Assembly: GCA_016178585.1 (NCBI GenBank)
Contig: JACOTA010000002.1
Location: 1-32,319 of the forward strand
Source: Nitrospirota bacterium
GTDB taxonomy: Bacteria; Nitrospirota; Nitrospiria; JACQBW01
Direction of reading: 5' to 3'
DNA length: 32,319 nt
Below, piece after piece: positions 5,937 to 32,319 of the stretch. Positions within the stretch are counted from its first letter, which is position 1; every line of letters starts with the position of its first letter. The notes beneath the pieces were generated by a model, which worked only from the letters and a program-made list of their open reading frames with translations, was not told the origin of the DNA and made no database searches. Position numbers and translations under genes: made by a program.

Positions 5937-7049
5937 ATGAACCGTGTGATGGACGAAGATGAAAGACTGATGAAAAAAGCGCTCCATCTTGCCCAAAATG
6001 GAAGGGAGAGCGTTTCGCCGAATCCGCTCGTGGGAGCCGTCATCACCCGGAAGGGAAAAATTGTCGGCAGAGGGTATCATCAAAAAGCAGGGCTGCCCCA
6101 CGCCGAGGTTAATGCGATCCGCCAGGCGGGAGCTAAAACCCGGGGCGCGACTCTTTACTTGAACCTTGAACCCTGCTGTCATTCTGAAAAAAGGACTCCC
6201 CCTTGCACGGAAGCCATTTTAAAAAGCGGTATTAAAAAAGTCGTTGTCGCGATGAAGGACCCTAACCCGAAAGTCAACGGGAAAGGAATTTCCTTCCTCC
6301 GAAACCATGGTGTTTTGGTTCGAGAAGGGGTATTAAAAACCGAGGCAGAGGTCTTGAATGAGATTTTTTTGAAATTTATCACCACACGCCTTCCGTTTGT
6401 CGCCTTGAAAATTGCAGCCACGTTGGATGGAAAATTAGCGACTGCCGCCGGGAAATCCAGATGGATTACCGGAGAGAAGGCCCGGATGTATGGTCATCGT
6501 TTAAGAAACCAATATGACGCAGTGTTGGTCGGAAAGGGGACCGTCGCTGCCGATGACCCTGAATTAACCGTAAGACTTTCACTCCATTCCAAACGGAATC
6601 CGATTCGGATTGTCGTCGATGAAACGTTATCCGTTTCCCCGGATTCAAAAGTTTTTAACCTCCAGGGGGAAGATCGGGCGATTGTCGCTACGACACGGCT
6701 GGCTGAGATAGTCAAAAAAAAAGAATTTGAGAAAAGAGGCGTTAAGATCCTTCAAATTGAAGAAAAGGAAGAAGGGGTAAGCCTTTTGGCCCTGATGAAG
6801 GTTTTAGGTCAGATGGAAATTACCAGTGTTTTAATTGAAGGAGGTTCCCGGATTAACGCGTCTGCAATCGATGAAAAGGTCGTTGACAAGATTTATTATA
6901 TGGTGGCTCCGAAACTCATGGGTGGAGAGAATTCCGTTTCCGCCGTCGGCGGACGCTCTCCCGCCGATCTTTCAGCATTAACGGTGTTAAAAAAAGTGAA
7001 GATAAAAAAATTAGAAAATGATATTTTAATTGAAGGGTATTTGAATTAA
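5937..7049 (+). CDS. ribD: Bifunctional diaminohydroxyphosphoribosylaminopyrimidine deaminase / 5-amino-6-ribosylamino-uracil reductase
   Basis: Second and third steps of riboflavin synthesis from GTP. The N-terminal deaminase domain shows SPNPLVGAV, zinc-binding HAEVNA (His about 55) and PCCHSEKRTPPC. The C-terminal reductase domain begins near 145 with KIAATLDGKLAT and includes WITG, DAVLVGKGTVAADDP and the late VLIEGGSRINAS. Length of 370 aa is normal. The start is ATG 5937; an ATG four codons later is possible because the upstream ribosome site is weak. The 24-nt gap from ppdK suggests co-transcription. I saw no FMN riboswitch signature upstream. Confidence 0.95.
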   Translation: MNRVMDEDERLMKKALHLAQNGRESVSPNPLVGAVITRKGKIVGRGYHQKAGLPHAEVNAIRQAGAKTRGATLYLNLEPCCHSEKRTPPCTEAILKSGIKKVVVAMKDPNPKVNGKGISFLRNHGVLVREGVLKTEAEVLNEIFLKFITTRLPFVALKIAATLDGKLATAAGKSRWITGEKARMYGHRLRNQYDAVLVGKGTVAADDPELTVRLSLHSKRNPIRIVVDETLSVSPDSKVFNLQGEDRAIVATTRLAEIVKKKEFEKRGVKILQIEEKEEGVSLLALMKVLGQMEITSVLIEGGSRINASAIDEKVVDKIYYMVAPKLMGGENSVSAVGGRSPADLSALTVLKKVKIKKLENDILIEGYLN

Positions 7050-7073
7050 TTTTTTCTGTCACGAATAAAACAG

Positions 7074-7161
7074 GTGAAGCATCAGGCTTTGCCTGTGCGG
7101 AACATGGGGTTCGGGGGCATCGGAGGATTTCACGAAGTAAAACCGCACGGGCCCCTGAATA
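7074..7161 (+). repeat. 88-bp leader element, copy 1
   Basis: First of four full-length copies. In element coordinates, stem P1 is 10-14 with 18-22 (CAGGC/GCCTG here), the invariant core is 33-51 (GGGGTTCGGGGGCATCGGA), stem P2 is 52-60 with 64-71 around a GAA loop, and closing stem P3 is TTCGGGG (37-43) with CCCTGAA (80-86). This copy has ATG instead of the usual GCG just before the core and a C-A mismatch in P2. It ends 16 nt before the ATG at 7178, and the Shine-Dalgarno AGGAG lies in that gap. Confidence 0.85.
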
Positions 7162-7177
7162 AAACAAGGAGAAAGAA

Positions 7178-7567
7178 ATGAAATTGTTTTTTATCGGGAC
7201 TTTGATTTTTACAATGGTTGTTTTTTCCTCTTCGAAGCTGTATGCCGCGGAAGACCGTACGCTGGAAAATGTTTTTAAGAATGCTTATTACGGAGCTGCC
7301 ATTGGAGGATTGCTGGGCGCCGCCATTATGGTTTTCACAGACAGGCCGGTTGATCACTTAAACTATATCGCATATGGAGTGGCCGGAGGGGTGATTGCAG
7401 GAACCGTTTATGGTATGACGGTTCAGGCCAGATCTTTTGCTGACATTAACCAGGGCAAACTCGTGATCAATCTTCCTGAACCCGAAATTAAAAATGATTC
7501 GCTGCTGGATCCGGCCGAAAAGAAAAGAACGATCGTTTTCCTTCCCCTCCTTCGTTACCATTTTTAA
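7178..7567 (+). CDS. Small exported or inner-membrane protein with glycine-zipper segments
   Basis: Not a family I can name. The 129-aa product has a signal peptide or N-terminal membrane anchor (residues 1-23, MKLFFIGTLIFTMVVF then a cut near YAAE). Two Gly/Ala-rich hydrophobic stretches follow, GAAIGGLLGAAIM near 47-60 and YGVAGGVIAGTVYG near 67-82, which look like a glycine-zipper helical hairpin. The tail is polar with a hydrophobic end (TIVFLPLLRYHF). AGGAGAAAG precedes the ATG, and the 88-bp element lies directly upstream. The ribE GTG begins 3 nt after its stop. It interrupts the usual ribD-ribE adjacency, which suggests a later insertion with its leader. Confidence 0.75.
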   Translation: MKLFFIGTLIFTMVVFSSSKLYAAEDRTLENVFKNAYYGAAIGGLLGAAIMVFTDRPVDHLNYIAYGVAGGVIAGTVYGMTVQARSFADINQGKLVINLPEPEIKNDSLLDPAEKKRTIVFLPLLRYHF

Positions 7568-24771: not shown

Positions 24772-25335
24772 GTGACTATTATTGTGGGTTTGGGAAATCC
24801 CGGACAAAAATACGAAAAATCCCGCCACAATGTCGGCTTTATGGTTGTGGACTATTTAGCTGAAACGAACCAGATTCTCATCAATAAAAAAAATAATTTA
24901 TATGAATCTGGTTCAGGATTGCTTCTTTCCCATAAGGTTTTGTTGGTAAAACCTGCGACTTTCATGAATCAAAGCGGTATCGCTGTCCGACAGATTATCG
25001 ATTATTTTCATGAAAGCTCTGCCCGGCTCATCATTATTCATGATGAACTCGATATTCCCTTTGGAGAAATCCGGATTAAATTGAAAGGGGGATCAGGGGG
25101 ACATAACGGGGTAGCCTCCCTGATGGACTTTCTGAATACGGATCAATTTTTGCGTATCCGGGCGGGGATTGGCCGACCCGTCGAAAACGAAGATGTGGTT
25201 TCCTTTGTTTTGTCTCCCTTTTTCAAGGAACAGCAGGTTGTTTTACAGGGGATGATTAAAAAATCCGCTGAAGCGGTTAAAGAGGTTCTATCCTCAGGGG
25301 CTCATCAAGCCATGAATCTCTATAATCAGAGGTAA
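24772..25335 (+). CDS. pth: Peptidyl-tRNA hydrolase
   Basis: Frees tRNAs from prematurely released peptidyl-tRNA. 187 aa, starting at GTG with MTIIVGLGNPGQKYEKSRHN, which carries the catalytic His about 20 (RHNVGF). Further motifs: KPATFMNQSG near 63, IHDELDIPFGEIRIK near 89-103 and GGSGGHNGVASL near 106. The gene is adjacent to rplY, as in many bacteria. The 88-bp element begins 17 nt after its stop. Confidence 0.96.
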   Translation: MTIIVGLGNPGQKYEKSRHNVGFMVVDYLAETNQILINKKNNLYESGSGLLLSHKVLLVKPATFMNQSGIAVRQIIDYFHESSARLIIIHDELDIPFGEIRIKLKGGSGGHNGVASLMDFLNTDQFLRIRAGIGRPVENEDVVSFVLSPFFKEQQVVLQGMIKKSAEAVKEVLSSGAHQAMNLYNQR

Positions 25336-25351
25336 TACAGATAAATATTAA

Positions 25352-25439
25352 GAGAAGCAGCCGGCTTGGCCGGTGCGGAACGCGGGGTTCGGGGGCATCG
25401 GACGATTTCACGGAGTGAAACCGAACGGGCTCCTGAATA
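25352..25439 (+). repeat. 88-bp leader element, copy 2
   Basis: P1 here is CCGGC/GCCGG, a compensated change from CAGGC/GCCTG in copy 1. The 19-nt core is unchanged. P2 is TTTCAC/GTGAAA with a GGA loop and one C-C mismatch at the base; one pair of P3 becomes G-U. It ends 15 nt before the hppA ATG at 25455, with AGGAG in the gap. Confidence 0.85.
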
Positions 25440-25454
25440 AAATAGACTAGGAGA

Positions 25455-27497
25455 ATGTCGATGGATGTCACTCAGGGATTTCTTGTTTTTTCGTTTGGTT
25501 GCGCGATTGCCGCGGTGGTTTACGGGGGGATTTTATCCCGCTGGATTATGAAACAAAGTCCCGGATCTGAAAAAATGCAAATCATTGCCCAGGCTATCCA
25601 GGAAGGGGCAAAAGCTTTCTTAAACCGCCAATATACGACCATTGGAATGGTGGGGTTGTTTTTGTTTGCGGTTTTATGGATTGCTTTAGGCGCGGCAACG
25701 GCAATCGGATTTTCTATCGGCGCTTTATTATCCGCTACCGCGGGTTACGTGGGCATGAATGTTTCAGTTCGAGCGAATGTTCGGACGGCTGAAGCTTCCA
25801 AACAGGGGTTGGCTCAAGGTCTCAAAATCGCAGTGAACGGCGGGGCGGTGACAGGTCTTTTGGTGGTGGGGCTTGGTCTTTTAGGAGTCGCCGGCTATTA
25901 TGCGGTTTTGTATATGATGACCCCCGCAGGTTCCGCGCCCTCGATTACCCCTTTGATTGGTCTTGGTTTTGGAGGAAGTTTGATTAGCCTTTTTGCCCGT
26001 TTGGGGGGAGGCATTTATACGAAAGCGGCGGATGTGGGAGCCGACCTGGTGGGCAAAGTGGAAGCGGGAATTCCGGAAGATGATCCTCGGAATCCTGCTG
26101 TGATTGCAGACAACGTGGGAGACAATGTCGGGGATTGCGCCGGAATGGCCGCTGACCTTTTTGAAACGTATGCCGTCACCATTATTTCGGCAATGCTTTT
26201 GGGGCAACTGACGTTTGGCAACTCGCCCAAGGCCCTGATTTTCCCCATTGCTCTTGGAGCGGTTTCGATCGTGGCCTCTATTATAGGAACATTTTTCATT
26301 AAGCTCGGCCCGAGTCAAAATATCATGGGGGCTTTATATAAGGGTCTTGCGGCGAGCGGAATCCTTTCGGCATTAGCGTTTTATCCAGTGACCAGGTTCT
26401 TAATGGAAGGCGTCGGCGCCACTCCGGTCAACAATCTTTACTGGTCGGCCTTGATTGGATTGATTGTTACAGCGGCCCTGGTGGTCATTACCGAGTACTA
26501 TACCTCAACCCATTATAAGCCGGTTCGTCATATCGCGGAGGCTTCTAAAACCGGCCACGGGACAAACATTATCGCAGGGCTGGCTGTTGGAATGAAGGCG
26601 ACGGCTCTGCCGGTTCTCGTGATCGGGGCGGGGATTCTCGGTGCTTATTATTTTGCCGATATTTACGGAGTCGCTATCGCGGCGGTTTCCATGCTTTCCA
26701 TGGCGGGAATTGTTGTGGCCCTGGACGCCTACGGCCCGATTACCGATAACGCGGGAGGTATTGCCGAGATGGCCGGCCTTGATAAATCGGTTCGGGCCGC
26801 GGTTACCGATCCCCTGGATGCGGTGGGAAACACGACGAAAGCGGTAACAAAAGGATACGCAATCGGGTCGGCTGGTTTGGCCGCTGTGGTTTTATTTTCT
26901 GCCTATACCCAGGATCTTAACGCAAAATTAATGAAGGTCATCGTGTTTACCCTCAGTGACCCCTATGTTTTAGTGGGTTTATTTATTGGGGGACTTCTCC
27001 CTTACCTCTTTAGCGCATTGAGCATGGAAGCGGTAGGACGGGCGGCAGGACAAATTGTTGAGGAGGTTCGAAGACAGTTTAAAGAAATTCCCGGAATTAT
27101 GGAAGGAACGGCAAAGCCGGATTATGGGAGAGCGGTTGATATCGTGACCAAGTCCGCGATCAAGGAAATGATTCTTCCCGGGATTATTCCGGTGGTTACC
27201 CCGATCATCGTGGGGCTGCTTTTGGGACCCGCGGCGCTCGGAGGTGTCCTGGTAGGAACCATCGTGACCGGCCTCTTCGTCGCAATTTCCATGACCAGCG
27301 GCGGCGGCGCATGGGACAACGCAAAAAAATATATTGAAGAGGGAAATTTTGGGGGAAAAGGGAGTGAAGCCCATAAAGCGGCGGTGACCGGGGATACCGT
27401 AGGAGACCCTTATAAAGACACCGCCGGACCGGCAATCAATCCGATGATAAAGATCATCAATATTGTCGCACTGCTCCTTGTCCCTTTTATGAAGTAG
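25455..27497 (+). CDS. hppA: Membrane-bound proton-pumping pyrophosphatase, K+-independent type
   Basis: 680 aa with about 16 membrane helices. Couples PPi hydrolysis to ion export. Hydrolytic signatures are complete: [20 protein letters not shown] and [19 protein letters not shown] in the middle, [12 protein letters not shown], and the C-terminal [14 protein letters not shown] and [17 protein letters not shown]. In the segment [16 protein letters not shown] the Lys after GNTT marks the K+-independent H+-pumping class (K+-dependent enzymes have Ala). A second ATG at 25461 is better spaced from AGGAG. The gene sits between pth and ychF, which are normally neighbours, so it and its leader element look inserted. 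Confidence 0.95.
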
Positions 27498-29138: not shown

Positions 29139-29534
29139 ATGGCGAGTTTCAATAAAGTCATTCTCATGGGCAACCTGACAAAAGATCCCGAAATTCGTTA
29201 TACGCCATCCGGGACCGCAGTGGCCAATTTCCGGATTGCCGTTAATCATCGCTATAAACAAGGAGATGAAACAAAGGAAGACGTTTGTTTTATTGATATT
29301 GTGGTTTTTGGCAAACAAGGGGAAAGTTGCGGTCAATACCTGCATAAAGGTAATGGCGTGATTGTCGATGGCCGCCTTCAGGAAAGACGATGGGAGACCG
29401 AAGACGGACAAAAAAGAAGCAAGTATGAGGTCGTCGCTCAAAGTGTCCGATTTCTTCCTAAAAGAGATGGATCTGGTGAAAAAACCGAGGCCGTAGTGGA
29501 TGAGGTCGCCGACAATAATGATGTCCCTTTCTAA
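29139..29534 (+). CDS. ssb: Single-stranded DNA-binding protein
   Basis: 131 aa with one OB fold: FNKVILMGNLTKDPEIRYTPSGTAVANFRIAVN at residues 4-36 in family form, then FIDIVVFGKQGESCGQYLHKG and the strand VIVDGRLQERRW. The C-terminal linker is short and ends NDVPF, the conserved tip that recruits repair and replication partners. It lies between S6 and S18, a common arrangement. AGAAGGAG precedes the ATG. Confidence 0.96.
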   Translation: MASFNKVILMGNLTKDPEIRYTPSGTAVANFRIAVNHRYKQGDETKEDVCFIDIVVFGKQGESCGQYLHKGNGVIVDGRLQERRWETEDGQKRSKYEVVAQSVRFLPKRDGSGEKTEAVVDEVADNNDVPF

Positions 29535-29544
29535 AAAAGAGTAT

Positions 29545-29590
29545 GGAACAGGCTTTGTCTGACCGAACGAGGGGTATAGGCCCCTGAATA
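29545..29590 (+). repeat. Deleted copy of the 88-bp leader element
   Basis: A 46-bp relic eight bases upstream of the full copy 3. It keeps the P1 side (CAGGC TTT GTCTG) and the 3' end GGCCCCTGAATA, but lacks the core and P2. The remaining halves form AGGGG-TATA-GGCCCCT as a new hairpin. The best match is to copy 1, so it is a deletion derivative of a copy-1-like element. Confidence 0.7.
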
Positions 29591-29597
29591 TGAATAA

Positions 29598-29685
29598 GTG
29601 TAGCAGCCGGCTAAGCCGGTGCGGAACGCGGGGTTCGGGGGCATCGGAGGATTTCACGAAGTGAGACCGGACGGGACCCTGAATA
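29598..29685 (+). repeat. 88-bp leader element, copy 3
   Basis: P1 CCGGC/GCCGG, unchanged 19-nt core, P2 GG-A-TTTCAC / GTGAGA-CC with all positions paired, P3 complete. Ends 20 nt before the rpsR ATG; AGAGGAA lies in the gap. The element also has an open frame ([15 protein letters not shown]) that continues in frame into rpsR. Confidence 0.85.
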
Positions 29686-29705
29686 TGAATAGAGGAAACT
29701 TTTTA

Positions 29706-29972
29706 ATGAGAGACACCAAAGATAAAAAAGATAAAAAAGACAAAACTGAAAAAAAGACATTTCAAAGAAAAAAAATGTGCCGGTTTTGTGCCGATAAAAT
29801 TGAATACCTTGATTATAAGGATCTGGTGACTTTAAAGAATTTTTTAACCGAACGGGGAAAGATCATTCCAAGGAGAATTTCAGGGAACTGCTCAGGCCAT
29901 CAACGGCAACTCACCTTGTCCATCAAACGCGCAAGAAATATTGCCCTGTTGGCGTTTGCCGAAGAACGATAA
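29706..29972 (+). CDS. rpsR: 30S ribosomal protein S18
   Basis: 88 aa from ATG 29706. A Lys/Asp-rich N-terminus ([15 protein letters not shown]) precedes the conserved part: [43 protein letters not shown] and [13 protein letters not shown]25-x2-C28 and the later Cys-x3-His are spaced like the metal-binding (C+) form of S18. The open frame extends upstream through copy 3 of the leader element to a GTG, which could give a 29-residue N-terminal extension, but the ribosome site and family length favour 29706. Confidence 0.95.
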
Positions 29973-31194: not shown

Positions 31195-31328
31195 AAGAAC
31201 AGAGTTAGAAAGCTGTCATTGCGAACAAAGTGAAGCAATCTCAAGACTTTACGATAAGATTGCCACGCACCCTTCGGTGCTCGCAATGACATGATTAATA
31301 AGTGGGTGCGAAGTCTATCGCTGTTCTT
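31195..31328 (+). mobile_element. 134-bp MITE-like palindromic repeat, copy B
   Basis: Perfect terminal inverted repeats AAGAACAG/CTGTTCTT, extendable to CCAAGAACAG/CTGTTCTTGG. The inner part contains GTCATTGCGA and TCGCAATGAC arms. One mismatch from copy A across 134 bp shows recent mobilisation or duplication. It lies between DUF2232 and the YVTN gene, where rplI would be expected. Confidence 0.85.
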
Positions 31329-31353
31329 GGTTAAACTTTTAAAAACAAAATAA

Positions 31354-31441
31354 GTGAAGCAACTGGCTTAGCCCGAGCGTAACGCGGGGTTCGGGGGCAT
31401 CGGAGCATCTGCCGAAGGCGGAGCGGACGGGTCCCTGAATA
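31354..31441 (+). repeat. 88-bp leader element, copy 4 (divergent stem)
   Basis: The 19-nt core and P3 are unchanged, but P2 is rewritten as GC-A-TCTGCC / GGCGGA-GC and still pairs fully. P1 has one mismatch (CTGGC/GCCCG). It ends 20 nt before the ATG at 31462. This copy gives the strongest evidence that the stem, not the base sequence, is kept. Confidence 0.85.
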
Positions 31442-31461
31442 TAATAGAAGAAAGGGTCATC

Positions 31462-32319
31462 ATGCGTCAGCATCCTGGATTTAGGAAAGCTCTTTTCGTC
31501 CTTATTTTATTAGCTCTTCCCGCACTTCTCTTTTTGACCCTTTCCAGGGTTTATTCCCAAACCCCCTCAGTCATCACCGTTTCGGTGGGCAACGAACCCC
31601 GCGGCGGAGCCTATAACCCCTCGACCTACAAAGGGGTGGTGTCAAACCACAACACCAATACGGTAACCATTATCAATGCGACCAACTTTTCGACGACCTC
31701 CGTCACGGTCGGCTCTCATCCATACGGCGTCTCTATTAATAACAGCACGAACAAAGCCTACATCGCCAACGAACAGTCCGATACCGTCAGCGTCATTACC
31801 CTGTCCAACAATACTGTTACCGCAACCATTCCGGTCGGAAACAACCCAAGAGGGATTGCGGTCAATTCATCGACCAATGTGGCCGTAGTCGCCAACTCCA
31901 AATCAGACACAGTCTCGATCTTAAATCTCTCCAATAACAGTGTCATTTCGACTTTGGCTGTCGGAAGCGATCCCGAAGGAGTGGTCATTAACGCGGCCAA
32001 CAACAGCGCTTATGTCACCAACTACGGCTCCAACACCGTCTCGGTCATTAATTTAACCAATAATACCATTTCAACGACGATTTCCGTCGGTTCAGGCCCA
32101 TTGGGGATAGATATCAATACGGCCACTTCCAAGATTATGGTGGCGAATCACTTTTCCAATACCGTCAGTGTCATCACTCCCTCGACCAATACCGTTACGG
32201 CGACGATTAACGTCGGCTTGGCCCCTTACGGAGTTGCCATCAACTCCACTACTTCGAAAGCCTATATTACCAATGAATATTCCGACTCCGTATCAGTGAT
32301 CAATATGGGGACCAATACC
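31462..32319 (+). CDS. Secreted YVTN-family beta-propeller protein (partial)
   Basis: Open for 286 codons to the window edge. A signal peptide (residues 1-32, ALFVLILLALPALLFLTL) precedes tandem repeats of about 42 residues of the form VGxxPxGVAIN...KAYITNxxSDTVSVI...NTVTATI; six are at least partly present. Such propellers occur in S-layer-like or adhesive surface proteins and some redox-associated exported proteins. Codons are strongly biased to C-ending Thr/Asn/Val triplets, unlike the neighbouring housekeeping genes. The ribosome site (AAGAAAGG) is moderate. It has its own promoter candidate and leader element. Confidence 0.9.
   Translation, partial: MRQHPGFRKALFVLILLALPALLFLTLSRVYSQTPSVITVSVGNEPRGGAYNPSTYKGVVSNHNTNTVTIINATNFSTTSVTVGSHPYGVSINNSTNKAYIANEQSDTVSVITLSNNTVTATIPVGNNPRGIAVNSSTNVAVVANSKSDTVSILNLSNNSVISTLAVGSDPEGVVINAANNSAYVTNYGSNTVSVINLTNNTISTTISVGSGPLGIDINTATSKIMVANHFSNTVSVITPSTNTVTATINVGLAPYGVAINSTTSKAYITNEYSDSVSVINMGTNT

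Follow-up and report, generated by a model that had tools for sequence, protein, structure and literature searches.

A stretch of DNA of 32,319 nucleotides from an uncultivated Nitrospirota bacterium (its whole length is called the window here) contains four copies of a short repeat that can be folded into two hairpins. In an earlier note on this DNA, the P2 stem of copy 4 was described as having been rewritten, relative to copy 3, by changes on both sides of the stem, so that base pairing rather than coding would have been kept. The locus thus raises the questions of what this repeat is, whether its pairing is indeed the conserved property, and how the copies came to lie between the genes where they are found.

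Identity and fold of the repeat

We observed that the window's own genome (G000, 2.45 Mb) carries ~130 copies of a ~95-nt interspersed repeat having two hairpins, a density of about one per 18 kb. The covariance model R1, which was built from 55 copies (alignment A2), gave 141 matches in this genome at E <= 0.1 and ~130 at E < 1e-4, with the best E-values going down to 1e-22. When the 106-nt stretch of copy 4 was used as a BLAST query, 49 matches were obtained in the same genome. In an Rfam search of the window, only a tRNA scored above the curated threshold and no family was found for the element, the best sub-threshold match to it being freshwater-2 (18 bits, against a threshold of 49.9). 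The element is a family missing from Rfam. We take the four copies of the window to be members of a large family of small non-autonomous mobile repeats, which the earlier note had not recognised as such. The copies and the hairpins of copy 4 are listed in Table 1.

Table 1. Positions in the window of the element copies and of the hairpins in copy 4
Feature	Position	Strand	Score, neighbours or structure
Copy 1	7072..7166	+	R1 104.2 bits; between presumed ribD (5937-7049, named by reading its sequence) and small exported-protein ORF (7178-7567)
Copy 2	25350..25444	+	R1 96.3 bits; between pth (24772-25335) and hppA (25455-27497)
Degenerate fifth copy	29538..29595	+	R1 27.0 bits, E 8e-4; directly upstream of copy 3
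Copy 3	29596..29690	+	R1 97.5 bits; between ssb (29139-29534) and rpsR (29706-29972)
Copy 4	31352..31446	+	R1 91.0 bits; upstream of exported-protein ORF with short repeats (starts at 31462, runs off the window)
P1 hairpin, copy 4	31359..31378	+	two mismatches, A-A and U-C; consensus pairs read onto the sequence
P2, copy 4	31390..31439	+	basal stem 31390-31398 with 31431-31439, A bulge, then 31400-31402 with 31428-31430
P2 apical stem, copy 4	31405..31424	+	31405-31413 with 31417-31424, A31407 bulged, GAA loop; site of the both-side changes

The element consists of two hairpins in succession, P1 and then P2. P1 is capped by GGC-NNN-GCC, and the basal stem of P2 is centred on GGGGGC/GCCCCC. The internal loop of P2, in which CAUCGGAGGA faces CCGCACGGG, is conserved, and the apical stem above it varies from copy to copy, usually being closed by C-GAA-G. 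At the 5′ end, the element reads AAGTGAAGC or AGCGAG in the alignment. Its size ranges from about 85 to 150 nt, and it also occurs in tandem arrays, with four copies before ruvA. In copy 4, the mismatches of P1 are A31361 opposite A31376 and U31364 opposite C31374. The 3′ end of copy 1 is an AAATGA lying over the next ATG, and there the reading frame runs through, as it does in a few copies.

Additional sequence was seen in and around some of the copies. The apical loop may carry an insert of ~40 nt, CATAGCTTCGCTGCGG...AAGCTTTGTGG (L142:3452, L154:3712 and L188:6261), and further copies have other inserts of 40–70 nt. An alternative 5′ domain, GTGACGGACTTGGGAATGGTCGTAGTTAGACCGAGCG, either replaces P1 or comes after it in some copies (L005:595-689, L008, L009 and L126). 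At 31211-31292 of the window, shortly before copy 4, there is a palindromic repeat of another sort, TGTCATTGCGAAC ... GCTCGCAATGACA.

Base pairing is conserved among the copies

We compared the apical stem of copy 3, GGAUUUCAC-GAA-GUGAGACC, with that of copy 4, GCAUCUGCC-GAA-GGCGGAGC. Reading from the outside in, the first G-C pair is the same in both; the second changes from G-C to C-G on both sides and is followed by the A bulge and an unchanged U-A pair. The next two pairs change on one side each, from U-G to C-G and from U-A to U-G, and in the inner part C-G becomes G-C and A-U becomes C-G, both sides being altered each time, before a C-G pair that is common to the two copies. The both-side changes reported for this stem are real: three of the eight pairs differ on both sides, two on one side, and none is lost. 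When 4+4 random substitutions were introduced, all eight apical pairs were preserved in 0.14% of the trials (P about 0.001). The change from A-U to C-G in P1 between copies 1 and 2, which had also been claimed, was confirmed by comparing the sequences.

A larger alignment had been named beforehand as the check by which P2 pairing might be refuted, and we found the pairing strongly supported on three of them. In A2 (55 copies), which was made by MAFFT and not fitted to the structure, 97.6% of the cells pair, compared with 87.8% after shuffling and 33–49% after sliding, and the covariation score was 0.301 against 0.114 in the shuffles (reached in 0/500). In A3, having 142 distinct copies and fitted to the covariance model, 95.7% of the cells are paired and both-side changes occur in 20 of the 21 pairs (0/500 shuffles). 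A4, which is confined to the eight apical pairs in 16 copies, gave 97.7% pairing, with both-side changes in six of the eight.

We also analyzed which strand folds. In the paired columns, G-U exceeds A-C by 270:16, or by 61:16 when two columns that are mostly G-U are left out, and therefore the sense strand is the folding one. The same strand asymmetry would also fit a single-stranded DNA intermediate.

The reading frames behaved differently from the pairs. The best frame is open in 44 of the 125 copies, versus 32 ± 5 in shuffles, and no frame is conserved; the copy lengths are spread over all three classes modulo 3. We rejected a coding element, as the frame is not retained. With covariation on three alignments and no reading frame retained, it is base pairing and not coding that is conserved, as had been proposed.

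The apical stem of copy 4 is a recurring type

The description of copy 4 as compensatory rewriting stands as far as the pairing is concerned, but that the rewriting took place within copy 4 itself is less certain, the same stem type being found elsewhere. The type TCCGCC-GAA-GGCGGA, or near forms of it, is present in about nine copies including copy 4, and these copies have differing P1 stems. Other recurring apical types are TTTCAC-GAA-GTGAAA, a short GCGAAGC, CATTGA...GAAGG, and types with an extra 40–70 nt, all of them assigned by rough pattern matching, with which 42 of the 125 copies remained unclassed. Because this type recurs in other copies, the stem of copy 4 may be a recurring cassette that was received by exchange instead of by stepwise change.

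Sense-oriented placement at gene junctions

We analyzed the gene context in the stretches around the copies, where gene calls were simple ORF scans made without a trained gene finder. By these scans the copies lie mostly at gene ends, and among the 125 copies from the window's genome both neighbours are in sense orientation for 59 and both antisense for 3 (p about 2e-14). A stop codon of the upstream gene is found within −6 to +12 of the element in 31 cases, versus one in the antisense control, and the start codons cluster 2 nt and 10–17 nt past the element. Often, the element begins at the stop codon of the preceding gene (TAA, or the TGA in AAGTGA) and ends just ahead of the start codon or ribosome-binding site of the next one. 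The downstream genes, whose names are our reading of their sequences, belong to all functional classes (rpsR, rplI, rplA, rpoB, hppA, clpP, purC, metK, dnaX, lepB, ruvA and others), and some copies are located between convergent or unrelated genes.

At two loci, L121:15094 and L157:9483, the next gene takes the beginning of its frame (GTGAAACAACC and GTGAAGCAACTGG) from a partial second copy located at the 3′ end, by which VKQ is added to the N terminus of the product. In the g16 genomes (L056 and L059), the 5′ end of the tmRNA gene directly follows a copy, which abuts this gene and does not enter it.

Orthologous junctions are mostly empty in a sister genus

The gene block ispE-prs-rplY-pth-hppA-ychF-rpsF-ssb-rpsR, which includes the junctions occupied by copies 2 (pth/hppA) and 3 (ssb/rpsR), is syntenic across much of the class. 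Both of these copies are absent at those junctions in the two other genera of the family (G001 and G002, the latter a sister genus) and in most other relatives. We then considered all the copies for which both flanking genes are syntenic in G002, in a comparison covering 0.80 Mb of that genome. There were 47 such copies, with tandem ones counted individually, as for the four at ruvA, which makes the number of independent sites somewhat smaller; 44 of the sites are empty in G002 and three are occupied. At the empty sites, the two genes often overlap by ATGA or are less than 30 nt apart.

As 44 of the 47 orthologous sites are empty, we concluded that the element is mobile and is not a gene-specific riboswitch, which these empty sites nearly exclude. 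It could be argued that G002 has lost the element from these sites; this is unlikely in view of the clean ATGA overlaps at many of them.

At the filled sites, several copies show an RTGA or longer repeat at both junctions, and the junction repeats average 5.28 nt versus 4.76 in shuffles. A target-site duplication of fixed length was not found at the element junctions, and neither a transposase nor an autonomous parent was found for the element. In another genome, G019, the pth/hppA junction is occupied by a separate copy, which lies within a second repeat whose inverted ends measure 17 bp, AGGGGCTCGCGTCGCCC ... GGGCGACGTGAGCCCCT. This second repeat was seen in L257 (from G019), in L040 and at L014:1028.

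A copy inside the RNase P RNA

We found a copy of the element between the two P3 strands of a class A RNase P RNA, both in the window's genome (contig C30, L157:2572-2657) and in G002 (contig C7, 90160-90218). The RNase P RNA was matched by Rfam RF00010 with 264.9 bits. In G000, the P3 strands flanking the insert are CUCUCCC and GGGGAGAG, and six relatives have a short P3 at the same place. No RNase P RNA other than this insert-bearing one was found in G000, and likewise in G002, so that the essential ribozyme appears to function with the insert present. The rnpB copy also provides compensation at a fixed site: GGUCAGAU/AUCUGACC in G000 corresponds to GAUCAAAU/AUUUGAUC in G002, with two pairs changed on both sides in place.

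Distribution in other genomes

By BLAST, the element was detected in 19 of the 58 relatives sampled, mainly in families f1, f3, f4, f5 and f9 and, by one weak match, in f7; in this sample it was not found in families f2, f6 and f8. There was a single match in G117, from a distant family of the phylum, for which contamination is possible.

Related cores are patchy in other phyla. Multi-copy cores having the same loop letters are present in genomes from soil that carry the label Deltaproteobacteria (DP_23, DP_26 and relatives), and a slightly varied core is present in multiple copies in a Myxococcales MAG. These cores from other phyla also share a 3′ motif, ACCGCACGGGC, which was absent from the search pattern. 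When public genomes were scanned with an exact pattern, many of the matches were due to chance, and only those confirmed by the covariance model were retained; for the exact-pattern matches in viral contigs, the model gave no confirmation. In the order of the DP_23 genome, which is outside the window's phylum, G270 has 26 copies of a related core, and two of the seven genomes of this order are without it.

Comparison with known repeats

MIRU lie in sense orientation in operons and have a DTGA target. Among the systems that we compared, they are the closest to the element in placement, as at ATGA sites such as L149:10598 and L117:7657, and the element is likewise sense-oriented between operon genes. 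Overlapping stop and start codons of the DTGA form are found at several of the empty sites (hits 47, 68, 73 and 102), and other copies come after a TAA stop. MIRU are described as short repeats inserted at start codons, with coupling to the neighbouring gene by a −4 nt overlap (PMC12548453). We set the element apart from them by description: MIRU retain an ORF coupled to the next gene, whereas here it is the fold that is retained and not the frame.

RPE are dispersed palindromic elements that occur also within the genes for tmRNA and RNase P M1 RNA (PMC2229807). The element resembles them in lying within a functional RNA gene; however, RPE are known for insertion within ORFs, and the present copies lie mostly at gene ends. 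The BOX repeats of Streptococcus pneumoniae are modular, with exchangeable inner modules, and are predicted to fold when transcribed (PMC3049150). Modularity with an exchangeable inner part is shared by the element, but BOX is overrepresented between convergent genes and the element is almost always between co-directional ones.

With REP/REPIN, the element has in common over 100 intergenic hairpin copies per genome. REP sequences have a GT(A/G)G head at the foot of the hairpin (PMC2817692); the element lacks this head, and the distribution of the RAYT transposase does not match that of the element. ERIC and Correia repeats are also intergenic, transcribed and of similar length, and are able to act on transcripts (PMC3049150), but the element has two successive separate hairpins, and its two ends do not form an inverted repeat. 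Unlike MITEs, it is without terminal inverted repeats.

Proposed model and alternative explanations

Considering the observed copy number, sense bias, presence and absence at orthologous sites, covariation and rnpB insertion together, we regard the element as a mobile, sense-oriented, structured intercistronic repeat, with a probability of about 0.82. In the model that we propose, it would be transcribed within polycistronic mRNA, each copy forming two self-contained hairpins, P1 and P2, the apical cassette of the latter being exchangeable. The hairpins would leave the adjacent stop and start codons free, so that insertion would be tolerated even in ribosomal-protein and RNA polymerase operons and in the RNase P RNA. 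Selection on the transcribed strand would maintain the pairing and the internal-loop core. The fold would thus render insertions harmless, and we infer that a trans-acting factor recognises the conserved core, either for movement or for mRNA processing. As a first guess, movement may be brought about by a transposase acting on the folded single strand; our confidence in any single mechanism of movement is far below that in the mobile-repeat reading.

A conceivable alternative, though one to which we give a minor share, is that the element serves in the processing or stability of intercistronic mRNA, as an RNase target or barrier that helps operons and spreads secondarily by recombination between copies. 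The sense-only intercistronic placement and the conserved fold would be expected of such an element, and ERIC and Correia repeats do act on transcripts in other bacteria (PMC3049150). However, nearly all of these junctions lack it in the sister genera, and the copies between convergent or unrelated genes do not agree with such a function.

It is unlikely that the element is a palindrome of the REP/REPIN type, or derived from IS200/IS605, that is moved by a resident Y1 (RAYT-like) transposase. Besides the missing GT(A/G)G head, the element is present in several genomes having no match to Y1_Tnp (PF01797), among them G002, G036 (a single contig), G044 and G050, and the Y1_Tnp genes of G000 are not flanked by copies of it. 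In favour of this reading are the abundance of hairpin-rich copies, over 100 of them, and the presence of Y1_Tnp genes in many of the genomes.

A highly speculative form of mobility is that of an element selected and recognised as RNA, which would spread via its transcript or a single-stranded copy and land almost always in sense at gene junctions, with the internal loop serving as the handle for a partner conserved in several phyla. If this holds, the element would be the equivalent of a SINE in bacteria.

We consider it very improbable that the copies are riboswitch-like or protein-responsive leader RNAs serving a large regulon. Such a leader could explain the two-hairpin fold with its conserved internal-loop letters and the position just before start codons, but hardly the empty sites in the sister genus, neighbours from all functional classes, copies in the middle of operons and within the RNase P RNA, and the lack of an Rfam family at gathering score. 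Finally, comparisons of two copies can mislead and an alignment made with a covariance model is fitted to its structure, but with the unfitted MAFFT alignment in agreement and E-values as low as those found here, chance similarity or an alignment artefact is a negligible explanation.

Knowledge of small dispersed repeats comes from a handful of well-studied bacteria, in which they are regarded mostly as DNA elements. The mobile repeat described here is a family with strong covariation on the transcribed strand, and its core is met again in other phyla. A riboswitch search that relies on covariation alone could be misled by it. The family also provides a natural experiment for asking how a structured RNA is tolerated when it is inserted into operons and into an essential ribozyme.
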